The notes below the pieces were generated by a model. It ran no database searches, was not told the origin of the DNA, and saw only the letters and a list, made by a program, of their open reading frames with translations. A stretch of DNA of 64,000 nucleotides from Stigmatella erecta (GTDB lineage Bacteria; Myxococcota; Myxococcia; Myxococcales; Myxococcaceae): NCBI RefSeq assembly GCF_900111745.1, contig NZ_FOIJ01000009.1, forward strand, positions 1 through 64,000. Direction: 5' to 3'. Shown in pieces: positions 19,475-43,433 of the stretch. Within the stretch, counting starts at the first letter, position 1. Every line of letters begins with the position of its first letter. The position numbers and the translations under genes were made by a program.

Positions 19475-19639
19475 CCCCGCCAGGTCTTCCGGCGCTTCAA
19501 GGTGAGCCGTGGCTGCCGGCCGAAGCCTGGCCAGGATGTCCACCCAGGACAGAATTTTTCCATAATCCCGCTTGCCGCCCCCGCCAGTCGCCTGCTAGTC
19601 ACTCGGAAATCTTGAATTGCGGTTTGACCGAGGATGAGC

Positions 19640-22600
19640 ATGAACAGACGACACAGCAGATCCGGACTCCTCGCGGGAGTTGTTGCCTGCATGACGGCCG
19701 TGGGCTGCGGAACAGGAGCCTCGCCGGAATCCTCCCTGGCGACACAGCAGCAGGCCCTGGAGGAGGGGCCGGACTTCGTCGTGTCCGCCGTCACCGGCCC
19801 CACGAGCGCTCCGCTGGGCCAGTCCATCTCCGCCTCGGTCACCGTGTGCAACCAGGGCACCCAGAGCGACAGCACCTGGGTCGAAGTCTTCCTCTCCACC
19901 GACACGGTCATCTCCCCGCCCGTTCCTCCCGCGCCCCCCACGGACCTCCTGCTCGGGGGCTCGCACACCGATTACCTCGTTCCTGGGCAGTGCCAGACGC
20001 TGTCGATTTCGGGCACTTCCTGGGGCATCTCTCAAGGCGCGTACTACCTGGGCGCGGTGGCGGACCCACAGAACAGCCGGTTTGAGCGCATCGAGAACAA
20101 CAACAGCCTTGCGGGCAGCCGCATCGGCATCGGCAATGGCGCGGACTTCGTCGTGTCGGCCGTCAACGGCCCCAGCAGTGCCCAGCCTGGCCAGACCCTC
20201 ACCACCTCGGTGACGGTGTGCAACCAGGGCACGCAAAGCGATAGCACCCGGGTCGAGGCCTTCCTCTCCACCGACGCCATCATCTCTCCCCCGTGGCCTC
20301 CGGGAGCTCCGGGTTCTTCGACGGACCTCTTGGTCGGCAGTGCCCATACCGACTCCCTCATGCCTGGGCAGTGCCAAACGCTCTCGCTCAGGGGCTCCCT
20401 CTGGAACCTCCCTCAAGGCGTGTTCTACCTGGGCGCGGTGGTGGATCCTTATGGCGACCGGACGGAACTCATCGAGGACAACAACAGCCTTGCGGGCAGC
20501 CGCATCGGTATCGGCAATGGCGCGGACTTCGTCGTGTCGGCCGTCACCGGCCCCAAGAGTGCCCAGCTTGGCCAGACCCTCACCACCTCGGTGACGGTGT
20601 GCAACCAGGGCACGCAGAGCGATAGCACCCGGGTCGAGGCCTTCCTCTCCACCGACGCCATCATCTCCCCTCCGGTGCCGCCCTCGCCTTCGGCGGACAT
20701 CCCCATTGGGGACGCCCACACCGATGACCTCCATCCTGGGCAGTGCCAGACGCTCTCGATCATGGGCTCCCCCTGGAACCTCCCCTCTTCAGGCGTCTAC
20801 TACCTGGGAGCGGTGGCGGACCCACACAACGAGCGGCTCGAACTCATCGATGACAACAACAGCCTTGCGGGCAGCCGCATCGGCATCGGTAATGGCGCGG
20901 ACTTCGTCGTGTCCGCTGTCACCGGTCCCAAGAGCGCTCAGCGCAATCAGCCGTTCACCACCTCGGTGACGGTGTGCAACCAGGGCACGCAAAGCGATAG
21001 CACCCGGGTCGAGACCTTCCTCTCCACCGACGCCCTCATCTCCCCGCCCGTGCCCCCTGGACCTCCGACGGACATCCCGCTCGGAAGCGCCTACACCGAC
21101 TACCTCTTTCCGGGGCAGTGCCAGACCCTCTCGATCCCGAGCTCCTCTTGGGGCCCGCCTCAGGGGGCGTACTACCTGGGGGCGGTGGTGGATCCCCAGA
21201 ACGACCGGACGGAACTCATCGAGGACAACAACAGCCTTGCGGGCAGCCGCATCGGCATTGGCGAGGGCGCGGACTTCGTCGTGACCGCCGTCACCGGCCC
21301 CGCGAGCACTCAGCAGGGCCAACCCATCACCACCTCGGTGACGGTGTGCAACCAGGGCACCCAGAGCAACAGCACCTGGGTGGAAGTCTTCCTGTCGGCC
21401 GACACCGTCATCGCCCCGCCCGTACCTCCCATGTTCTCAACGGACTTCCCGTTTGGGGGAGCCCCTACCGACCCCCTCTTTCCGGGGCAGTGCCAGACCC
21501 TCTCGATTCCAAGCCCCTCCTGGGGGGGCCCCTCTCAAGGGGCGTACTACCTGGGGGCGGTGGTGGACCCTCAGAATGACCGGACGGAGCTCATCGAGGA
21601 CAACAACAGCCTTGCGGGCAGCCGCATCGGCATCGGCAATGGCGCGGACTTCGTCGTGACCGCCGTCACCGGCCCCAAGAGCACTCAGCAGGGCCAGCCC
21701 ATCACCACCTCGGTGACGGTGTGCAACCAGGGCACCCAGAGCGACAGCACCTGGGTGGAGGTCTTCCTGTCCGCCGACACCGTCATCACCCCTGCCCAGC
21801 CCCCCGTGATCACCCCGGACTTCCCGCTTGGGGGCACGTCCACCGACTTCCTGGCCCCGGGGCAGTGCCAGACCCTCTCGATCCCGAGCTCCTCTTGGGG
21901 CCCGCCTCAGGGGGCGTACTACCTGGGGGCGGTGGTGGACCCTCAGAACGACCGGACGGAGCTCATCGAGGACAACAACAGCCTTGCGGGCAGCCGCATC
22001 GGCATCGGCAATGGCGCGGACTTCATCGTGACCGCCGTCACCGGCCCCAAGAGCACTCAGCAGGGCCAGCCCATCACCACCTCGGTGACGGTGTGCAACC
22101 AGGGCACCCAGAGCGACAGCACCTGGGTGGAGGTCTTCCTGTCCGCCGACACGGTCATCACCCCCGCCCAGCCCCCCGTGGTCACCCCGGACTTCCCGCT
22201 TGGGGGCACGTCCACCGACTTCCTGGCCCCGGGGCAGTGCCAGACCCTCTCGGTGTCAGGCCCCGCCTGGAGTCCTACGCCGGGGGCGTACTACCTGGGG
22301 GCGGTGGTGGATCCCCAGAACGACTGGCCCGAACTCATCAAGGACAACAACACCCTGGTAGGCAGCCGCATCGGCATCGGCTCCCGAGCCGACTTCCTCG
22401 TGACCGCCATCACCGGCCCCAAGAGCGCCCAGGAGGGCCAGTCCATCACCACCTCGGTGACGGTGTGCAACCAAGGTACCCAGGGTGACAGCACCCAGGT
22501 GGAGGTCGTCCTGTCCGCCGACACCCTCATCTCCGCCTCCCCCCCCTATGCGCCTTCAGCGGATTTCCCGCTCGGGAGCGCCTCCACGAACTTCCTCGCG

Positions 22601-23140
22601 CCTGGACAGTGCCAGACCCTCTCGGTGTCAGGCGCCGCCTGGAGCCCTTCTCCGGGCGTTGCTCCCTACCTGGGCGCGGTGGTGGACCCCGAGGATGACC
22701 GGCTCGAACTCATCGAGGACAACAACACCCTGGCGGGCAGCCGCATCGGCATCGGCTCTCGCCCCGACTTCGTCGTGTCCACCGTTACGGGCCCCGCGAG
22801 TGCGTCGCAGAGCAAGTCCATCACCGCCTCGGTGACGGTGTGCAACCAGGGCACCCAACGCAACAGCACCCAGGTCGACGTCTTCCTCTCCTCCGACAAG
22901 ATCATCACGCCCCCCTCGCCGGCCACGTCTCCCATGCTCAGGGATCATTTCGTGGGGGGCGTGAACACCGCCACCCTCGGCCCAGGACAATGCCAGACGC
23001 TGTCCGTGCAGGGCCCTGTCTCCGTGCCCTCGGTGGGGGCGTACTATTGGGGGGCCGTGGCGGATCCGCAGAACTACCAGCCCGAGTTGATGGAAGATAA
23101 CAACGCGAAGGCGGGGTCGCGCATCTCCATCACCCCCTGA
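19640..23140 (+). CDS. Nine-repeat CARDB lipoprotein
   Basis: 1166 residues. GAGG ends 6 bases before ATG 19640, which favours it over ATG 19634. A lipobox (MTAVGC) marks an anchored surface protein. The rest is nine tandem CARDB-like beta domains of 124-127 residues, each starting DFVVSAVTGP and containing SVTVCNQGTQSDST, a PGQCQTLS core and YYLGAVVDPQN...LIEDNNSLAGSRIGIG. Each repeat has two cysteines that could form a disulfide (VCNQG, GQCQT). CARDB domains are cell-adhesion or substrate-binding modules, so a stalk or adhesin is likely. The gene stands alone. Confidence 0.88.
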   Translation: MNRRHSRSGLLAGVVACMTAVGCGTGASPESSLATQQQALEEGPDFVVSAVTGPTSAPLGQSISASVTVCNQGTQSDSTWVEVFLSTDTVISPPVPPAPPTDLLLGGSHTDYLVPGQCQTLSISGTSWGISQGAYYLGAVADPQNSRFERIENNNSLAGSRIGIGNGADFVVSAVNGPSSAQPGQTLTTSVTVCNQGTQSDSTRVEAFLSTDAIISPPWPPGAPGSSTDLLVGSAHTDSLMPGQCQTLSLRGSLWNLPQGVFYLGAVVDPYGDRTELIEDNNSLAGSRIGIGNGADFVVSAVTGPKSAQLGQTLTTSVTVCNQGTQSDSTRVEAFLSTDAIISPPVPPSPSADIPIGDAHTDDLHPGQCQTLSIMGSPWNLPSSGVYYLGAVADPHNERLELIDDNNSLAGSRIGIGNGADFVVSAVTGPKSAQRNQPFTTSVTVCNQGTQSDSTRVETFLSTDALISPPVPPGPPTDIPLGSAYTDYLFPGQCQTLSIPSSSWGPPQGAYYLGAVVDPQNDRTELIEDNNSLAGSRIGIGEGADFVVTAVTGPASTQQGQPITTSVTVCNQGTQSNSTWVEVFLSADTVIAPPVPPMFSTDFPFGGAPTDPLFPGQCQTLSIPSPSWGGPSQGAYYLGAVVDPQNDRTELIEDNNSLAGSRIGIGNGADFVVTAVTGPKSTQQGQPITTSVTVCNQGTQSDSTWVEVFLSADTVITPAQPPVITPDFPLGGTSTDFLAPGQCQTLSIPSSSWGPPQGAYYLGAVVDPQNDRTELIEDNNSLAGSRIGIGNGADFIVTAVTGPKSTQQGQPITTSVTVCNQGTQSDSTWVEVFLSADTVITPAQPPVVTPDFPLGGTSTDFLAPGQCQTLSVSGPAWSPTPGAYYLGAVVDPQNDWPELIKDNNTLVGSRIGIGSRADFLVTAITGPKSAQEGQSITTSVTVCNQGTQGDSTQVEVVLSADTLISASPPYAPSADFPLGSASTNFLAPGQCQTLSVSGAAWSPSPGVAPYLGAVVDPEDDRLELIEDNNTLAGSRIGIGSRPDFVVSTVTGPASASQSKSITASVTVCNQGTQRNSTQVDVFLSSDKIITPPSPATSPMLRDHFVGGVNTATLGPGQCQTLSVQGPVSVPSVGAYYWGAVADPQNYQPELMEDNNAKAGSRISITP
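19772..23137 (+). repeat. Tandem 372-381-bp coding repeats (nine units)
   Basis: Units start at 19772, 20144, 20525, 20900, 21272, 21647, 22019, 22391 and 22766, all in frame. Units 6 and 7 are nearly identical for their first roughly 245 bases. The last third of unit 6 matches unit 4 instead, a mosaic pattern expected from recombination between repeats. Confidence 0.9.
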
Positions 23141-26824: not shown

Positions 26825-27700
26825 TTAAGCTGCCAACGTAACAGGTAGGGCCGCGTTCTCAAAGTCCACCGGGCTGACGTAGCCCAGCGTCGAGTGCCGC
26901 CGCTGCCGATTGTAGAAGACCTCGATGTACTCGAAGAGGGCCAAGCGGGCCTGCTGACGCGTGGCGAAGTCAGTTCGGTAGACCAGCTCCTGCTTCAAGC
27001 TGCTGAAGAAGCTCTCCACCACGGCGTTGTCCCAGCAATTGCCCTTCCTGGACATGCTGCACTCAATGCCCCGAGCGGCCAGCACCTGCTGGTAATCGGC
27101 GCTGGCGTACTGGCTGCCCCGGTCCGAGTGGTGGATGAGCCCCTTGGGGGGTTGGCGCCCTTGCAGCGCCATCTCCAAGCCTGAGAGTACCAGGTGCCGG
27201 TCGATGTGCTCGCCCATGGCCCAGCCCACCACTTTGCGGCTGAACAGGTCCATCACCACCGCCAAGTACAGCCAGCCTTCGGCCGTCCACACGTAGGTAA
27301 TGTCCGTGGCCCAGGTGCGGTTGGGAGCCTGGGGGCTGAAGTCCCTGTTGAGCACGTTGGGAGCCACCGGCAGGCCATGCCTGGAGTCCGTGGTGCACAC
27401 CCGGCGGCGCCTTCGGCGGGCGGCCAGCTTCTGCTGCTCCATGAGCCGCGCCACGCGCTTGCGGCTCACTCGGCGGCCCTGAGCCCGCAGCTGGGCGTGC
27501 ACCCGGGGGCTGCCGTACACTCCGCGGCTGTCTCGGTGGGCTTGGGCCACCTCGGCCGCCAGCCTCTGGTCTTCCTGCTGCCGCGCCGACTCCGGACGCC
27601 GACTCCAGGCATAGAAGCCCGAGCGCGACACCTCCAGCTGCTCACACAGGAACTCCACCGGGAAATGGGCCTTCTGCGCTTGGATGAACTCGAACTTCAC
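26825..27700 (-). CDS. IS3-family transposase OrfB (DDE integrase)
   Basis: 291 residues. It has an HTH_21 region ([26 protein letters not shown]) and an rve integrase core with the DDE triad: [19 protein letters not shown] and [18 protein letters not shown] (Glu). Its own start would be GTG 27700 inside the end of orfA, but the frame is open upstream to the A7 run at 27732-27738. It is probably made as an OrfAB fusion by -1 slippage there, the standard way in this family. It ends at the left inverted repeat. Confidence 0.95.
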
Positions 27701-35075: not shown

Positions 35076-35909
35076 ATGGATGGCGTTGCAAAGAGGATTC
35101 GCTGGTCGCGTTTCCTGCACGAGGACTCCCGCCGGGGGGTGATTGTCCCCATCGACCATGGGCTCACCCTGGGGCCCATTCAAGGGTTGGAGAGCCTGGA
35201 GCAGATCGGACGATGGATCCGCCACCCGGTCATCACGGGGGTCCTTGCCCACAAGGGGTTGATCGAGCGGCTGGTGGATCAAGGACTGCTCCGGCGCCAG
35301 GGGGTGATGGTTCACCTCAATGGAATGACTTCGCTGTCGTCCACGCCGAACCGCAAGGAGATTCTGACCTCGGTGGAGCGAGCGCTTCGCCTCGGCGCGG
35401 ACGCGGTCTCCCTACAGCTCAACTTCGACGGGACGAACGACGCCTCGAACCTGGTCATGCTGGGCAGGGCGGTGGACGAGGCCCACGACGAGGGGCTGCC
35501 GGTGCTGGCCATGGTCTACGACAAGACCGAGCCTGCCCGGGAAGAGCAGCGTCTGCTGCGGATGCGCCACCTCATGCGCGCCTGCGTCGAGCTGGGCGCG
35601 GATGCCCTCAAGATCGCCGCGCCCGCCAGACTCGCCCTGTTGCCGGTCCTGCTGGATGGCATCCAGGAGCACACCGCGGTCTTCTTCGCGGGCGGTTCCA
35701 AGTGCTCGGACGAGGAATTCCTCGCCCTGACCCAGGAGGCGGTGGCCTGCGGTGCCACCGGCCTGTGTGTCGGACGAAACGTCTTCCAGCGCGAACGGCC
35801 GTCGCTGCTTCTCGACCGGGTGTGGGACCTCCTGCAGGGGGACCCTGCCGCCAGCAGCCAGGGGGCCGCCGCCTTCCTGACCCAGGGCTTCAGTGAAGCC
35901 GTGAAATGA
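35076..35909 (+). CDS. ADH-synthase-like class I aldolase (GriI-type, 3,4-AHBA pathway)
   Basis: 277 residues; GCAGGAG precedes the ATG. It belongs to the DeoC/FbaB-like family of archaeal ADH synthase and GriI: VIVPIDHGLTLGPI near 23-36, the Schiff-base lysine in ELGADALKIAAP (Lys 179), and the phosphate loop VFFAGGSKCSDEEF and ATGLCVGRNVFQ. GriI condenses aspartate semialdehyde with dihydroxyacetone phosphate; the archaeal enzymes use other substrates. Being followed by a DHQS-II homologue and aspartate kinase fits the GriI role and the route to 3-amino-4-hydroxybenzoate. It is first in a seven-gene operon. No promoter was recognised upstream. Confidence 0.85.
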   Translation: MDGVAKRIRWSRFLHEDSRRGVIVPIDHGLTLGPIQGLESLEQIGRWIRHPVITGVLAHKGLIERLVDQGLLRRQGVMVHLNGMTSLSSTPNRKEILTSVERALRLGADAVSLQLNFDGTNDASNLVMLGRAVDEAHDEGLPVLAMVYDKTEPAREEQRLLRMRHLMRACVELGADALKIAAPARLALLPVLLDGIQEHTAVFFAGGSKCSDEEFLALTQEAVACGATGLCVGRNVFQRERPSLLLDRVWDLLQGDPAASSQGAAAFLTQGFSEAVK

Positions 35910-36004
35910 CATCTCCGAAGTCACGAATCCTTTCCCATCACTCTCTCTCAAGGGCCGCGCAACGGGCCGTTCAGCGCGCGGAGTCCTCGTCATCAGGAGC
36001 AAGC

Positions 36005-37249
36005 ATGAGCACCCCAGACACCGTCATCAACATGAGCGAAGCCGTCACCATGCACAAACGCGAGCGGATCCGGCTCGAGCGTTTGGAGGGAGGCCGGAAC
36101 CGGTCCGAGGAGTCCAACGCCCTCATGGTCTGGTTTGACTCGCAGGGGCTGTCCACCCCTCAGGACCACGAGGGCTTGATCGCGCGGCTGACGAACCTGC
36201 CGTACACCGGCATCGTCCTCTACCCGGACAACCTGGCCGCGCTTGCCCCCGCCATCCCCGCGCGCATGCTCACGGTCTTTCATGCCGGACGCGCCGAGGA
36301 TCTGGAGCAGCTTTCCTTGCTTCACCCCCGGGAGGCCGTGGTGGCCAGCCCGGATGTGCAGGTGCTGGCGAAGGCGGCGGAGCAGGGGCTGAAGACGTGC
36401 TACCGGGCCTACGTGGATGATGGGGAGAGCCTGCATCAATCCATCCAGGAGGGCTGCCGCCACGCCTATTTGATGATCCGCTTCAGGGATCCCACCAACA
36501 TTCCGTTGGAGCTGGTGATCGCCTCGCTGCAGGCCACGAACACCGTGCTCATCAAGGAGATCAGCACGCCCACGGACGTGGATGATGCCATCGTCACCCT
36601 GGGGGTGATGGAGGTGGGCGCGGACGGGGTCATGTTCTCGCCGCGAGCCCACGGCGCGCTGAGTGATTTCGTCTCGCGCTTGGGCCGGCTGGAGCGCACG
36701 GCGGTGCAGCTGGAGGTGGCCACCCTGGTGCGCAGCACGCCCATCGGCATGGGCTATCGCAGCTGCATTGACACCACCACGCTCTTCTCGCCCACGGAGG
36801 GCATCCTGGTGGGCTCCACGTCCCAGGGCGGGCTGCTGTGCTGCCCGGAGGTCTTCTTCCTGCCGTACATGGAACTGAGGCCCTTCCGGGTGAACGCCGG
36901 CGCCGTCCATAGCTACGTCTACAACTTCGGCAACCGCACGGATTACATGAGCGAGTTGAGGGCGGGTTCGCCCTTGATGCTGGTCGACCGCACCGGGAGC
37001 ACGCGCCGCTCCAGCGTGGGCCGGATGAAGACGGAGATGCGGCCCTTGCGCCTCATCGAGGCCCGGTTCCAGAGCGGCGAGTGCATCAACGTCATCATGC
37101 AGGACGACTGGCACGTCCGGATTTTCTCGGACGAGGCCAAGCCGCTGAACATCACCGAGCTGAAGCCCGGGGACCAGCTGCTCGGCCACAGGGCCCTGCC
37201 GGGACGGCACGTGGGCATCAAGGTCGACGAGCACATCATCGAAACTTGA
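36005..37249 (+). CDS. 3-dehydroquinate synthase II homologue (GriH-type)
   Basis: 414 residues from ATG 36005, with AGGAG 5 bases upstream. An ATG at 35906 overlaps the aldolase stop (ATGA) but adds an unlikely Ser/Arg-rich leader. The AroB'-type pattern is clear: MVWFDSQGLSTPQDHEGLIARL, LIKEISTPTDVDDAIVTLGVMEVGADGVMFSP, and the C-terminal half with TTLFSPTEGILVGSTSQGGLLCCPEVFFLPYMELRPFRVNAGAVHSYV...YMSELRAGSPLMLVD. In GriH this enzyme cyclises the C7 product of GriI to 3-amino-4-hydroxybenzoate. It is separate from the shikimate AroB and would have no reason to sit beside aspartate kinase otherwise. Confidence 0.86.
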   Translation: MSTPDTVINMSEAVTMHKRERIRLERLEGGRNRSEESNALMVWFDSQGLSTPQDHEGLIARLTNLPYTGIVLYPDNLAALAPAIPARMLTVFHAGRAEDLEQLSLLHPREAVVASPDVQVLAKAAEQGLKTCYRAYVDDGESLHQSIQEGCRHAYLMIRFRDPTNIPLELVIASLQATNTVLIKEISTPTDVDDAIVTLGVMEVGADGVMFSPRAHGALSDFVSRLGRLERTAVQLEVATLVRSTPIGMGYRSCIDTTTLFSPTEGILVGSTSQGGLLCCPEVFFLPYMELRPFRVNAGAVHSYVYNFGNRTDYMSELRAGSPLMLVDRTGSTRRSSVGRMKTEMRPLRLIEARFQSGECINVIMQDDWHVRIFSDEAKPLNITELKPGDQLLGHRALPGRHVGIKVDEHIIET

Positions 37250-37261
37250 GAGGGCGCCGCC

Positions 37262-38554
37262 ATGAGAGCATTGGAGAAGTCTCCCCGGAGCGGACGTCCC
37301 CTGATCGTGAAGAAGTTCGGGGGCACGTCCGTGGCGGATGTCGAGCGCATCCGCAAGGTCGCGCGGCTGGCGCTCGAGAGCCAACGGGCAGGCAATGACG
37401 TGGTGGTTGTCGTCAGCGCCATGAGCGGGGAGACGAACCGCCTGCTGGGGCTGGCTCACCAGATGCTCTCCCGCCCGGATGCCCGGGAGCTGGATGTGAT
37501 TGCCGCTACTGGAGAGCAGGTCTCCACGGCGCTGACCTCCATGGCCATCCAGTCCGAGGGGGGGCAGTCCTGCTCCTTCCTGGGACACCAGCTCCCGTTG
37601 CGCACGGACAGCGCCTTCACCCGGGCACGCATCCACCAGGTGGAGCAGGAGCGCATTCGAAAGGCCCTCGCGCGTGGGCAGATCGCCGTGGTCGCCGGAT
37701 TCCAGGGCGTGGACTCCGATGACAACATCACCACCCTGGGGCGTGGGGGCTCGGACACCACGGCGGTGGCCTTGGCGGCCGCGCTGGGGGCGGACGTCTG
37801 TGAAATCTATACAGACGTGGAAGGCGTCTACACGGTGGATCCCCGCGTCTGTGCGTCCGGCCGGAAGCTGAAGTCCATTCCTTACGAAGAAATGCTCGAG
37901 CTGGCGTCCCTGGGAGCCAAGGTGCTGCAGGTGCGCAGTGTGGAGATCGCCATGAAATACACGGTGCCTGTTCACGTGCGCAGTACGTTTTCGGAAGAGG
38001 AGGGGACCTGGGTCGTCTCCCGGGAGAAGACGTTCGAGTCCCGGGTGCTCGCGGGATTGGCCTGTGAGCGGAACCAGGCACGGGTGGAGATCTCCGGCAT
38101 CGAGCACCACCCTGGCCGGATGGCGGAGCTGATGGAGTTGCTGGCCCAGATGAACACGAGCGTGGACCTGCTGCGCCATCGCCGGGAGGACGTTCATGCG
38201 AGCCTCTCGTTCACCCTGGCCGAGGAGGAACTGCTCCGCGCGAGGCCCTCGCTGGAGCAGCTCGTGGAGCGCATGGGCGCCTCCAAGGTTCAGGTCTCGG
38301 CGGGCCTGGCCAAGGTGTCGCTGGTGGGCATCGGCATCCGGTCGGATCCCTGGATTGCCGCCCGCCTGTGCCGCAGCCTCGCCCGGCACGGCATTGGTGT
38401 TTCGGATCTGGCCGTGAATGAGCTGCGCATCAGTGGGCTGGTGGAGGGGAACCACGCGGACGAAGCGCTCCGCATCCTTCACGAGGCCTTCCTCCTCGCG
38501 CCCACGGACGCCGCGGAACCTCCCGCCGCGTATGCCGAAGGGGGCTTGCAGTGA
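37262..38554 (+). CDS. Aspartate kinase
   Basis: 430 residues. [15 protein letters not shown] marks the N-terminal kinase, followed by [16 protein letters not shown], the [17 protein letters not shown] stretch and [37 protein letters not shown]. The C-terminal ~140 residues form two ACT modules ([32 protein letters not shown] and [43 protein letters not shown]). It feeds aspartyl phosphate and so aspartate semialdehyde to the pathway; no semialdehyde dehydrogenase is present, so the primary one must be shared. It starts 12 bases after the previous stop and overlaps the next gene. This is probably a dedicated copy. Confidence 0.93.
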
Positions 38555-39780
38555 ACAGCCCGCGCATCCTCATTGCCGGCGGCGGCATTGGCGGACTGGC
38601 GGCGGCCCTGGCGTTACGGCGGGCCGGGTTCGAGCCGCAGGTGTTCGAACAGGCCGCCCGCCTTCAGCCCGTCGGGGCTGGCATCCAGATGAGCCCGAAT
38701 GCGACGCGGGCCCTCCTCCAGCTGGGGTGCGGCGAACACCTGCGCGCTGCCGCCGTGGCCCCGGTGGCGCTGGAGGTCCGGAGCTGGAACACCGGCAGGC
38801 GCATCTTCTCCACCCCCTTGGGCGAGCGCTGCCTCCAGGAGTATGGCGCCCCGTACTACCATCTCCACCGGGCCGACCTGCACGCGGTGCTCCTGAAGGC
38901 ACTCGGGCAGGAGCCGCTTCACCTGAGCGCCCGCTGCACCGGCTTCGTCGAGGAAGACGGAAGGGTGCGCGTGGACTTCGCGGATGGCTCCAGCCAATGG
39001 GCGGACCTGCTCATTGGCGCGGACGGCATCCACTCGGCCGTCCGGACGGCGGCCTTCGGGCCGGAGCGCCCCCGCTTCTCGGGCTACGCGGCCTTTCGCG
39101 CCGTTCTCCCGGCCGAGCGCATCCGGGGCCTCCGGCTCCAGCGCAACCTGACCTCCTGGTGGGGCCCCGGGCGGCACTTCATGCACTACTTCATCTCGGG
39201 GGGGCGCCAGCTCAACTGTGTCGCCGTGGTCCCGGCGAAGACGTGGCCGCTGGAGTCCTGGTCGGCCCAGGGAACCCCCTCGGAGTTCCTCTCGGAATTC
39301 CGGGGGTGGCACCCCGCCGTCTTGGACATGATCCGCGCGACGGATCAGGTCTTCAAATGGGCCTTGTACGACCGGGAGCCCTTGCCCCAGTGGAGCCGTG
39401 GGCACGTCACGCTGCTGGGGGATGCCGCCCATCCCATGCTGCCTTTCCAGGCGCAGGGAGGGGCTCAGGCCATCGAGGATGCGGTGGTGCTCGCGGGCTG
39501 CCTGTCGCGGAGCGCCGGAAGGCCCCGGGAGGCGCTGGAGGAATACGAGCGGTTGCGCAAGCCCCGGACCAGCCGGATCCAAAAGGTCTCCCGGGGCAGC
39601 GCTGAACTGTTTCACCTTGCCCGGCCTGTCCAGGTCCTCAAACGAAATACCCAACTCCGGCTCACCCAGCGGTTCAGGCCGGGACGGCTCGTGCACCGGA
39701 TGGACTGGTTGTACGCGCACGACGCGCTGGCCGAAGCCAGTGCAACAGCAAGAGAGGAGAGCACACATGAACGGCATTGA
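38551..39780 (+). CDS. FAD-dependent aromatic monooxygenase (salicylate hydroxylase-like)
   Basis: 409 residues starting at GTG 38551, overlapping the kinase stop (GTGA). The FAD fingerprint is [31 protein letters not shown], the DG motif is [13 protein letters not shown], and GD is [30 protein letters not shown]. This is a group A flavoprotein hydroxylase, closest in pattern to salicylate/6-hydroxynicotinate 3-monooxygenase types. In this operon it may hydroxylate, or hydroxylate with loss of carboxylate, the 3-amino-4-hydroxybenzoate product. The regiochemistry is inference. It overlaps the copper oxidase gene by 14 bases. Confidence 0.88.
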
Positions 39781-41338
39781 GAAAGACTTGCATTGGCATG
39801 GGGGCGAGCATGGAGGCTCCTGGGAGAATCCACACATCCGGGAGGTCAGCCACGAGTTGACGGTCCAATATGCCACCCACCCGATCCGCCGGGTGCTCGA
39901 TGACGGTCAAGTGCAGGTCGACCTGGTCAACCTCCGTTCCTACAACGGGAAGCTGGTGGGGCCGGTCATGGAGGTCCGCCCAGGAGACACGCTGAAGGTT
40001 CTGCTGAAGAACCAGCTTCCCTTCAAGGAAGACATGGTGGGTGATCACCCGCACAACGGCCCCCATGGATCCAACGTCACCAATCTTCATTTCCACGGGA
40101 TGCATGTCTCTCCCGCGGGAAACTCCGACAACGTCATGCTGTCGATCGGCCCGAATCAGCAGTTCGAGTACGAGGTCAAGATTCCGGGTGATCACCCCGC
40201 GGGCACCCACTGGTACCACGCCCACAAACATGGGGCCGTGGGCATCCAGCTGGGCAGCGGCATGGCGGGGCCCTTGATCGTCCGCGGCGGCATTGACGGC
40301 ATCGAGGGGATTCGTGAGGCCCGGGAGCGCATCCTCGTCCTCCAGCAGATTCCCTACAAGATGGTCACCAATCCCTACGACGAGACCCAGCAGGCGAACA
40401 TGGTGGAGGAGTTCGCTCAGCTCTTCGAGTTCACCTGGCTGAGCGAGCTCGTGCCTCAAGGGCGGCGTGTCACCATCAATGGAGAGACCCTGCCGACCTT
40501 CCAGATGCGTCCGGGAGAAGTCGAGCGCTGGCGGTTCATTCACGCGGGCATCCACTTTCCGTTCCGGCTCCGGCTCGTCCGGGAGGGCGGCAACCCCGCG
40601 ACCGAGAGCATTCCCTACTACCTGATCGCCATGGATGGCATCACGACGGGCCGCCTCGACAAGGTGGACGAGACCGAGATGCACCCCGGGTACCGCGAGG
40701 ATGTGCTGGTCCAGGCGGTGGGCCGGGATGGGAAGCCCTTGGCGCAGGGAACCTACCTGCTCGTGGACGAGGTGGAGCAAAACCCCCAGGCCAAGGTCCT
40801 GGCCCGCATCATCGTGAGCGGGCCGCCGAAGAAGATGAAGCTGCCCAGACCGGAGATGCTGGCACGGTTCGCGCCGTTCAAGCCCATCCTGGACGAGGAG
40901 CTCACCAGCCATACGCCTCAGCCCGCGCACTTCGAAGTCCAGATGCTGCAACCGCCTCCGACGCCCGTCTTCAAATTCCTCCTCAACGGCATCGAGTTCG
41001 ATGCCCATGCGCCCCCACGCCTGCTGACCTTGGGTGCGGTGGAGGAGTGGCTCGTCACCAGCACGGGGGTCCCGGAGTTCTTTCCGGGGCATCCTTTCCA
41101 CATCCACACCAATCCGTTCCAGTTCACGGATGCGCAGGGGAGGATCGTCTGGAAAGACACGCTGTTCGTGCCCGTCGGGCAACAGTTCCGGTTGCGCACC
41201 CGCTACAAGCGCTACGTGGGCCAGTTCATGCTGCACTGCCACATCGTGTCTCACGAGGACGAGGGCATGATGGAGTTGCTGGAGGTCGTTCCGCCCAAAC
41301 AGGATGCCGGTGGTGGCGGTCACGGCCCTCACCACTGA
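39767..41338 (+). CDS. Multicopper oxidase (phenoxazinone-synthase/laccase-like)
   Basis: 523 residues from ATG 39767, with GAGAGGAGA upstream and no signal peptide. All four copper motifs are present: LHFHGMHVSP, HWYHAHKHG, HPFHIHTNPFQ and HCHIVSHEDEGMM (type 1 site with an axial Met). Three cupredoxin domains are inferred. Being cytoplasmic and inside an aminophenol operon, it is a good candidate for oxidising an o-aminophenol. PhsA-type copper oxidases make phenoxazinones in this way, while laccases usually carry a signal. The C-terminal tail is Gly/His-rich (GGGGHGPHH). Confidence 0.9.
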   Translation: MNGIEKDLHWHGGEHGGSWENPHIREVSHELTVQYATHPIRRVLDDGQVQVDLVNLRSYNGKLVGPVMEVRPGDTLKVLLKNQLPFKEDMVGDHPHNGPHGSNVTNLHFHGMHVSPAGNSDNVMLSIGPNQQFEYEVKIPGDHPAGTHWYHAHKHGAVGIQLGSGMAGPLIVRGGIDGIEGIREARERILVLQQIPYKMVTNPYDETQQANMVEEFAQLFEFTWLSELVPQGRRVTINGETLPTFQMRPGEVERWRFIHAGIHFPFRLRLVREGGNPATESIPYYLIAMDGITTGRLDKVDETEMHPGYREDVLVQAVGRDGKPLAQGTYLLVDEVEQNPQAKVLARIIVSGPPKKMKLPRPEMLARFAPFKPILDEELTSHTPQPAHFEVQMLQPPPTPVFKFLLNGIEFDAHAPPRLLTLGAVEEWLVTSTGVPEFFPGHPFHIHTNPFQFTDAQGRIVWKDTLFVPVGQQFRLRTRYKRYVGQFMLHCHIVSHEDEGMMELLEVVPPKQDAGGGGHGPHH

Positions 41339-41367
41339 GTTTGGCCTGGAAGCGTGTGAGGTTTTCC

Positions 41368-42123
41368 ATGGTGATCGATGCGCATGCCCATGTCTCTCTC
41401 TCCAGCTATGGAGCCACAGAGGGATACCTGAAGCAGCTCGAACAGAGCGGCATCCAGCAGGGCATCATTGGCCCTGGCGCCATGCTGGATGTCAGGCGGA
41501 TGAGCGCCTACCTCGGGGGCAAACTCAAGCCGGACAACGACGTTCCGGACAATGGGTATGTGGAGAAGTCCTTCCGCGCCCACCCCCAGCTGCATGGGCT
41601 TGCGTGTGTGGATCCACGAGCGCCACAAGCGGTCCAGACGCTGGAAGGGTACTTGAGGCGAGGTTTCCGTGGATTGAAGTTGGCACCCCTGGTTCATCCC
41701 GTGCCGTTCGACAGCCCGGCCGTTGCCGGACTGGTGAGCTTCTGTGGTGAGCTGGGGGTGCCTGTTTACGCACACACTGGGCCCCACCCGGGGGCCAGCA
41801 CGGCCCGTTTCGCCGCACTGGCCCAGCGGTTCCCTCGCACGAATTTTGTCCTGGAGCACCTGGGGTTTGGACCGGCCGATCCAGAGGCGACGGCCGCCGC
41901 CACCCACCTGGACAATGTCTTTCTGGAGACCTCGCTGGGCAGCTACCTGCACATCGAGGAATCCGTGAAGAAGGCAGGAGCCCACAAGGTGCTTTTCGGC
42001 TCCGAGTACCCTTTGTCGCACCCTGCCGTGGAGCTGAAAAAGATTCTCCTGCTCCCCATCTCCAGCCATGAGCGCGAGAGGATCCTCGGCAAGAACATCC
42101 GTGAATTGCTTCGCCTCGAATGA
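41368..42123 (+). CDS. Amidohydrolase (ACMSD/NatAM-like superfamily)
   Basis: 251 residues from ATG 41368. This is a small amidohydrolase_2-type TIM barrel. It begins MVIDAHAHVS with the HxH metal pair, then VYAHTGPHPGAS, TNFVLEHLGFG (His) and VLFGSEYPLSHP, where a Glu stands at the position usually taken by the metal-binding Asp. Relatives include decarboxylases such as ACMSD and the benzoxazole-forming NatAM. The ligase gene after it overlaps by 4 bases, so the two are made together, exactly the pair used in nataxazole-type benzoxazole formation. A decarboxylase is the alternative. Confidence 0.82.
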   Translation: MVIDAHAHVSLSSYGATEGYLKQLEQSGIQQGIIGPGAMLDVRRMSAYLGGKLKPDNDVPDNGYVEKSFRAHPQLHGLACVDPRAPQAVQTLEGYLRRGFRGLKLAPLVHPVPFDSPAVAGLVSFCGELGVPVYAHTGPHPGASTARFAALAQRFPRTNFVLEHLGFGPADPEATAAATHLDNVFLETSLGSYLHIEESVKKAGAHKVLFGSEYPLSHPAVELKKILLLPISSHERERILGKNIRELLRLE

Positions 42124-43433
42124 ACATCCACACAGGGAACAGAACCATGGCGTCGCTCTTTCCACTGGAAGCCCTCAACCGGATCTTGCGGCATGCACGC
42201 AACGCTCCCTTCTACAGGGCGCACCTGCCAGTCACCCCCCTCCAGTCCTGGGAGGACTTCGAGCGGATCCCCTTCTCGACGAAGGAGGACCTGCGCCGGC
42301 ACTCTCCGGAAGGACTGGTCTGCGTTCCACGCGAGCAGCTCCTGCAGTACCACGAGACCTCCGCGACGACGGGCGCCGCGGTCTCCGTCTGGTACAGCGA
42401 GAAGGACTTGAATGAGGTCCGGAACCATCTGGGGGAGTGGGGCGTTGGCTTCAGCCGCGACGACCGCGTGCTCATCAAGTTCCCCTATGCGCTCTCCTCC
42501 ATCGCGCACTTCGTTCAGGCCGCCGCTCACCACAAGGGCGCGTGTGTGATTGCCGCGGATGCGGGGACGGCGGTCACCCCTTTGCGGACCGTGGTCGAGT
42601 TGATGAGAAAGCTGAAGGTCACCGTGCTGGCCACCATGTCACTGCAAGCGGTGGTGGTGGCGGAAGCGGCGGAGATGGCGGGCCTTGACCCTCGCCGTGA
42701 TTTTCCCCACCTGCGGGCCATCTGCTGCGGCGGGGAACCCCTCACGCCCTACCGCCGGCAGCTCCTCCACGACATCTGGGGTGTCCCCGTCTATGACAAC
42801 TATGGGATGACCGAGACAGGCCCCCAGGCCATGGACTGCCCGGAACGCAGGCTGCACCCCGTCCAAGATGCTTTCTGGATGGAGATCCTGGATGAGCACT
42901 TCGAGCACGAGGTGGCCCCCGGGGAGACGGGAAACCTGGTCGTCACGTCGCTCACCCCCCGGGCCACCCCCATGATCCGGTACATCACGGGCGACAGGGT
43001 CAGACTTCTGAATCAGCCCTGTGCGTGTGGTCAATCCATCACCTTGCAGCACCGGGGCAGGGCGGCGGACATCCTGCGGGTCCAGGGCAAGCCGTTCGAC
43101 CTCTGGGATCTGCAGTCCATCGTGTTCCAGCTCCCGAGCCGCAGGTTCTGGAAGGCAGCCGCTGAACCGGAAGGGCTCCGCTTCATCGTGGAACAAGAGC
43201 GGAACGAGTTCCCCCTCCAACCCGCACTCCTGGAGCGTCTGCGGCAAGCCCATGGCGTCGGCCTGCGGGTGGACCTGGTTCCCAGAGGGACCCTCTACAA
43301 CCGCAATGAGCCGGTCTCGTTTGGACGGCCCGGGAAGCCCGTCTACATCTGTGACGCCGCGGAACTCGCAGCCCTGGTGGACGGCAGCCCAACCTCCGTC
43401 TCACGCGCCATGGCGAGCGGGTCAGCGCGATAG
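42120..43433 (+). CDS. PaaK-like adenylate-forming ligase
   Basis: 437 residues from ATG 42120, overlapping the amidohydrolase stop (ATG 42147 also possible). It has the phenylacetate-CoA-ligase fold: HARNAPFYRAHL at the start, a P-loop YHETSATTGAAVSVWYS in place of the usual SSGTTG, AICCGGEPLTPYRRQLL, the A5 motif VYDNYGMTETGPQ and the hinge region GNLVVTSLTPRATPMIRYITGDRVRL. It probably adenylates an aryl acid (3-amino-4-hydroxybenzoate or a derivative) and could work with the amidohydrolase next to it, as NatL2 does with NatAM. No carrier protein is encoded in the operon. Confidence 0.85.
   Translation: MNIHTGNRTMASLFPLEALNRILRHARNAPFYRAHLPVTPLQSWEDFERIPFSTKEDLRRHSPEGLVCVPREQLLQYHETSATTGAAVSVWYSEKDLNEVRNHLGEWGVGFSRDDRVLIKFPYALSSIAHFVQAAAHHKGACVIAADAGTAVTPLRTVVELMRKLKVTVLATMSLQAVVVAEAAEMAGLDPRRDFPHLRAICCGGEPLTPYRRQLLHDIWGVPVYDNYGMTETGPQAMDCPERRLHPVQDAFWMEILDEHFEHEVAPGETGNLVVTSLTPRATPMIRYITGDRVRLLNQPCACGQSITLQHRGRAADILRVQGKPFDLWDLQSIVFQLPSRRFWKAAAEPEGLRFIVEQERNEFPLQPALLERLRQAHGVGLRVDLVPRGTLYNRNEPVSFGRPGKPVYICDAAELAALVDGSPTSVSRAMASGSAR

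Follow-up and report, generated by a model that had tools for sequence, protein, structure and literature searches.

A rare 3,4-AHBA operon of Stigmatella erecta encoding a likely benzoxazole-forming amidohydrolase–ligase pair, possibly with a carboxylate-free product

The amidohydrolase and the PaaK-like ligase encoded at positions 41368–43433 of the window (the whole 64,000-nucleotide stretch of DNA analysed here) are likely to form a benzoxazole. The product proposed for them is a benzoxazole free of carboxylate, obtained from 3-amino-4-hydroxybenzoic acid (3,4-AHBA) through the action of a FAD monooxygenase (FMO), ester formation and ring closure. For this full scheme, leaving aside a copper-oxidase step, we estimate a probability of roughly 45%. 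The core chemistry is already known and has been demonstrated in myxobacteria for the close homologues PfxB and PfxC; the variant surrounding it is new.

The two genes are the last in a row of seven closely spaced genes on the + strand (35076–43433). Their reading frames have the ATGA at 42120–42123 in common, in agreement with the 4-base overlap reported in the initial annotation of this DNA. The seven genes, in their order, and two codons considered below are as follows:

35076–35909, + strand: 2-amino-3,7-dideoxyheptulosonate synthase-like aldolase, first step to 3,4-AHBA (Pfam DeoC, 5.8e-31; NCBIfam PRK07226, 7.7e-56)
35906–37249, + strand: DHQ synthase II-like 3,4-AHBA synthase of the GriH/PfxD/BagC type (Pfam DHQS, 4.5e-86; NCBIfam BagC_FevH, 2.2e-71, under its own cut-off)
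37262–38554, + strand: aspartate kinase, supplying aspartate semialdehyde (NCBIfam aspartate kinase, 497 bits, exceeding the cut-off)
38551–39780, + strand: group A FAD monooxygenase, proposed 3,4-AHBA 1-hydroxylase (decarboxylating) (phmmer matches in the PDB)
39767–41338, + strand: multicopper oxidase with all copper motifs and without a signal peptide (Pfam Cu-oxidase_2/3; comparison of N-termini and motifs)
41368–42123, + strand: ClxD/PfxB-type condensing amidohydrolase, 251 aa, proposed to close the benzoxazole (Pfam Amidohydro_2, E = 6.8e-30; 60% identity to the amidohydrolase of the pfx-ordered cluster L043; PfxB-like clade in the tree; AlphaFold2 model with pLDDT 90.9)
42004–42006, + strand: Glu213 codon of the amidohydrolase (GSEYP), where ordinary Amidohydro_2 proteins have Asp (motif comparison)
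42120–43433, + strand: PaaK-like aryl ligase, 437 aa, PfxC orthologue with the NatL2 zinc-site Cys/His/Cys/Cys (AMP-binding, E = 8.5e-20; 64–66% identity to PfxC-like ligases)
42564–42566, + strand: Gly149 codon of the ligase, at the position of NatL2 Arg156 (acceptor carboxylate) and adjoining the ClxA Lys140 column (alignment of 73 ligases)

The names of all seven genes are backed by family searches (Pfam, NCBIfam). Compared with three orthologous operons, all seven were found to be under purifying selection, with pN/pS values of 0.08–0.39 for the amidohydrolase and ligase, and the order of these two genes is kept across related genomes; the pair is therefore not due to chance. Promoter and terminator scans gave no signal exceeding chance. 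An operon combining 3,4-AHBA synthesis with a benzoxazole pair had been suggested earlier, and the upstream aldolase and DHQ-synthase-II-like gene indeed support a supply of 3,4-AHBA.

A second amidohydrolase of this kind was found in the same genome (G000) at C2:123957, inside a separate, complete closoxazole-type cluster (L030, G000:C2:115000–134000) that comprises a PfxA-like ligase, the amidohydrolase, a PfxC-like ligase, DHQS, aldolase, aspartate kinase and a divergent copper oxidase. In this analysis, the L030-like arrangement is labelled type I and that of the window operon type II. Type I is carried by eleven genomes of the family. Type II is rarer, being present in 4 of 195 Myxococcota genomes (G000, G037, G032 and G033), all of which also carry type I. 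No further type II operon was found in the 195 Myxococcota genomes or in two genome samplings of about 400 around Bacillota clusters. These samplings largely overlap, because the one around the 'Actinobacteria' MAG of L052 brings in the same genomes. In G032 and G033, representing another genus, the copper oxidase gene has the opposite orientation and the flanking DNA is different. Retention of the same seven genes amid different flanks indicates that these seven genes are the unit.

In the pfxA-E cluster of Pyxidicoccus fallax, PfxC couples two 3,4-AHBA molecules, PfxB closes the benzoxazole, and PfxA attaches a third unit at the ring carboxylate to give closoxazole A (PMC12118335), the product (m/z 406.10) of closoxazole-type (clx/pfx) clusters. 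Formation of the benzoxazole from 3,4-AHBA by PfxC and PfxB was achieved in vitro (PMC12118335), and the substrate of PfxB was argued by the authors to be an unstable ester, as in nataxazole (PMC12118335; PMC7204872).

The window operon shares with pfxA-E the 3,4-AHBA genes, a PfxB-like gene beside a PfxC-like gene, and a myxobacterial host. It differs from pfxA-E in its gene order, in the additional FAD monooxygenase, in a copper oxidase without a signal peptide, and in a ligase Gly that replaces the acceptor-site Arg. The gene order of pfxA-E is found at locus L043 of genome G056. With respect to the composition of closoxazole-type clusters, the aldolase and DHQS II are present, and a PfxB/ClxD-type amidohydrolase adjoins a PfxC/ClxA-type ligase; the second ligase, of the PfxA/ClxC type, is absent from all four type II operons. 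The clxA-E cluster of Clostridium cavendishii likewise has a 3,4-AHBA-based ligase and an amidohydrolase of the single-domain family. Unlike the window operon, the clostridial clx-type clusters examined contain neither a monooxygenase nor a copper oxidase.

The window ligase has 66% identity to that of L043; its identity to ClxA (9s3l) is 39% and to NatL2 37%. All four type II ligases cluster together in the tree (support 100/100), inside the myxobacterial PfxC clade (97/99). The structural zinc ligands of NatL2 (Cys248, His254, Cys308 and Cys310) are kept in the window ligase as CHCC according to the alignment, and the ester-then-condense chemistry of nataxazole serves as a model. The top NCBIfam model for the window ligase is the bagremycin synthetase BagE/FevW, but at 202 bits it is far under the model cut-off of 800. 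BagE/FevW is thought to esterify 3,4-AHBA with carboxylate-free p-vinylphenol (PMC6692506); the bagremycin pathway has no benzoxazole.

A marked difference was observed at the acceptor site. In NatL2, the carboxylate of the second (acceptor) unit is held by Arg156 (PMC7204872), and in ClxA, docking places it on Lys140, whose mutation K140A brings a gain of activity with catechol as acceptor (PMC12519233). Lys140 lies one column from Arg156, the numbering of 9s3l having been verified against S118 and P120 of the paper. Across 73 aligned ligases (types I, II, III and IV, clostridial and PfxA-like ligases, plus NatL2 and ClxA), Arg or Lys occupies one of these two columns in every case but four; the exceptions are the type II ligases, with Ala-Gly or Thr-Gly instead (Ala/Thr148, Gly149). 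Moreover, 37 columns are invariant in the 29 ligases of the Arg156 class, and exactly one of them is altered in all four type II ligases, namely Arg156, which becomes Gly. Donor-site residues are identical between type I and type II. Loss of the acceptor-site residue with an unchanged donor site fits a 3,4-AHBA donor combined with a carboxylate-free acceptor.

The effect of this observed substitution would be the loss of carboxylate binding by the type II acceptor site, what this Arg does in PfxC being read by analogy from NatL2 and from the docking of ClxA. Because the four type II operons form one clade, the change is probably a single evolutionary event. Replacement of A211 by Gly in the ligase was also considered as a type II-specific change and was dropped, as it is also present in some Bacillota ligases.

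In the amidohydrolase, the HxH motif, His136, His164 and Glu213 are all retained. Glu is found in the GSE motif of all 45 cluster amidohydrolases (44 by pattern, the last as GGE), whereas Asp stands at this position in 13 of 13 distant relatives with a readable motif. Glu213 may mark the ClxD/PfxB group, and it is a possible signature of condensing activity. The amidohydrolase was also checked for a basic residue lost specifically in type II, and none was found.

The initial annotation had likened this protein to NatAM, a loose comparison. NatAM is a two-domain enzyme of 494 residues that acts on 3-hydroxyanthranilate substrates and, like the distant relatives, uses an Asp, Asp345 (PMC7204872), whereas the window protein consists of a single Amidohydro_2 domain, and NatAM is ruled out as its model by size and domain make-up. 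NatAM is also not among the listed fold neighbours of the predicted structure, a result that carries no weight alone. By analogy with PfxB, the window amidohydrolase would catalyse benzoxazole closure.

For the FAD monooxygenase, the leading phmmer matches in the PDB were tropone 2-monooxygenase (318 bits), 6-hydroxynicotinate 3-monooxygenase (NicC, 276 bits) and the decarboxylative vanillate 1-hydroxylase (245 bits). Lower matches comprised salicylate hydroxylases and an entry named probable salicylate monooxygenase, which we take to be a 3-hydroxybenzoate 6-hydroxylase. The top NCBIfam model, 3-hydroxybenzoate 6-monooxygenase, scored under its cut-off. At E ≤ 1e-80 the monooxygenase was found in only 4 of the 195 Myxococcota genomes and is confined to type II operons. 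In the alignments, its residues Gln46, His209, Tyr213 and Phe299 correspond to Gln, His, Tyr and Tyr in vanillate 1-hydroxylase and to His, His, Tyr and His in NicC.

In NicC, 4-hydroxybenzoate 1-hydroxylase, vanillate 1-hydroxylase and 3-hydroxybenzoate 6-hydroxylase, the new hydroxyl group is introduced para to the phenolic oxygen. As the para position of 3,4-AHBA bears the carboxylate, hydroxylation there would amount to loss of CO2 and formation of 2-aminohydroquinone. The monooxygenase belongs to a family with many decarboxylating para-hydroxylases and may be a decarboxylating hydroxylase itself. This assignment is tentative, because its first-ranked solved relative is a tropone 2-monooxygenase and its top NCBIfam model is that of 3-hydroxybenzoate 6-monooxygenase.

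We infer the individual reactions of the full scheme, placing them around the observed genes, orthology, residue pattern and selection. Judging by homology, the aldolase, 3,4-AHBA synthase and aspartate kinase would yield 3,4-AHBA. The FAD monooxygenase would hydroxylate one molecule of it para to the OH, at the carbon bearing the carboxylate, releasing CO2 and leaving 2-aminohydroquinone. The ligase, with a donor site like that of PfxC, would adenylate a second 3,4-AHBA and pass it as an ester onto an OH of the aminohydroquinone. In the amidohydrolase, as proposed from PfxB, the neighbouring amine would attack the ester carbonyl, water would be eliminated and the ring closed. The predicted product is 2-(3-amino-4-hydroxyphenyl)-1,3-benzoxazol-5-ol, with a calculated [M+H]+ of 243.0764. 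Finally, and as the weakest step, the cytoplasmic copper oxidase may oxidise or couple the aminophenol.

A ring without a carboxylate would offer a PfxA-like ligase no site for extension, which fits the absence of PfxA. Loss of the acceptor-site residue, loss of the PfxA-like ligase and gain of a likely decarboxylating hydroxylase thus all favour a carboxylate-free acceptor. Against the full scheme, type II represents one clade, and the loss of Arg and the gain of the FMO could be two unrelated events that coincide; the amidohydrolase, moreover, shows no corresponding loss of a basic residue, and the PfxA-like ligase of L030 could act in trans. It is only tentatively suggested that the operon represents an undescribed second branch of benzoxazole biosynthesis, in which the FMO first removes the carboxyl group of one of two identical 3,4-AHBA molecules, 3,4-AHBA supplies both donor and acceptor, and the 5-hydroxybenzoxazole is then oxidised or dimerised by the cytoplasmic copper oxidase.

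The strongest alternative, which we consider unlikely, is that two 3,4-AHBA molecules are converted to the plain closoxazole core, 2-(3-amino-4-hydroxyphenyl)benzoxazole-5-carboxylic acid, and that the monooxygenase and copper oxidase merely decorate or detoxify. The homology of the window pair to PfxB and PfxC is in line with this, as is the occurrence of copper oxidases in type I clusters too, and the PfxA-like ligase of the genome's other cluster, L030, could act in trans. However, only type II lacks the basic residue to which binding of the acceptor carboxylate is attributed, PfxA is missing and the FMO present in all four operons, and in the product of this route the terminal-ring position para to the OH is blocked. 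The earlier proposal of a benzoxazole or an amide of two 3,4-AHBA units is retained in part. A benzoxazole from 3,4-AHBA units is well supported by the homology to PfxB and PfxC, whereas a simple two-unit dimer is less likely than the decarboxylated, hydroxylated variant, because of the adjacent FAD monooxygenase, the missing second ligase and the altered ligase acceptor site.

The type II copper oxidase has every copper motif intact, and its N-terminus, judged by eye, shows no signal peptide; the N-termini of type I copper oxidases, including that of L030, resemble signal peptides by the same judgement. Its weak matches include NCBIfam PhsA and the PDB phenoxazinone synthase. An intact cytoplasmic oxidase with such matches, together with a ligase whose top model forms a 3,4-AHBA–phenol ester, would suit a product in which 3,4-AHBA is joined through an amide or ester bond to an oxidised aminophenol (an aminoquinone or phenoxazinone arising via the FMO and copper oxidase), with no benzoxazole closed by the amidohydrolase. 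This route appears improbable, given that the amidohydrolase retains the cluster-specific Glu213 and remains in the PfxB-like clade, and that copper oxidases flank type I clusters as well.

A role of the amidohydrolase as a decarboxylase of the ACMSD/gamma-resorcylate type, acting on 3,4-AHBA or a derivative, is very improbable: the fold neighbours of its model are Amidohydro_2 and ACMSD-family proteins (best 3cjp, Z 27.4, rmsd 3.0 over 237 residues), the nearest including 2,6-dihydroxybenzoate decarboxylase and ACMSD, but orthology and context argue against it, namely about 60% identity to PfxB-like proteins adjoining PfxC-like ligases, the benzoxazole made by PfxB in vitro (PMC12118335), and Glu where distant relatives carry Asp.

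If the carboxylate-free scheme holds, a single residue change plus one extra gene turn a known two-enzyme benzoxazole machine towards acid-free phenolic acceptors. The type II ligase would then be a natural enzyme for acid-free phenol couplings, for which ClxA needed engineering (K140A) to work well. A sequence rule would also be available for predicting the acceptor type in such clusters, along with a specific product mass to seek in strains that also carry a closoxazole-type cluster.

Several other loci were noted. A further type of 3,4-AHBA cluster (L047, L048, L049, L115 and L116) contains aspartate kinase, DHQS, aldolase, an amidohydrolase (31–34% identical) and a ligase nearer to NatL2 (46%); in L047, genes for a second AMP-binding protein and a haem-oxygenase-like protein come next. 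At L044, L045 and L046, a 51% identical amidohydrolase and a PfxA-like ligase stand alone as a pair, 3,4-AHBA genes being absent nearby. On the conjugative Sinorhizobium medicae plasmid NZ_CP149880 (L117), a DHQ-synthase-II-like gene (49% identical) adjoins an NRPS, a cobalamin-dependent protein and a SagB-family gene. Streptomyces linear plasmids (L118 and L119) carry pairs of 3,4-AHBA synthesis genes beside adenylate-forming and flavin enzymes, possibly as manumycin-like clusters. Within the window, an IS3-like transposase is encoded upstream of the operon region on the - strand (26825–27700), and positions 19634–23140 encode a 1168-aa protein of many near-identical repeats (NGADFVVSAVTGP...).
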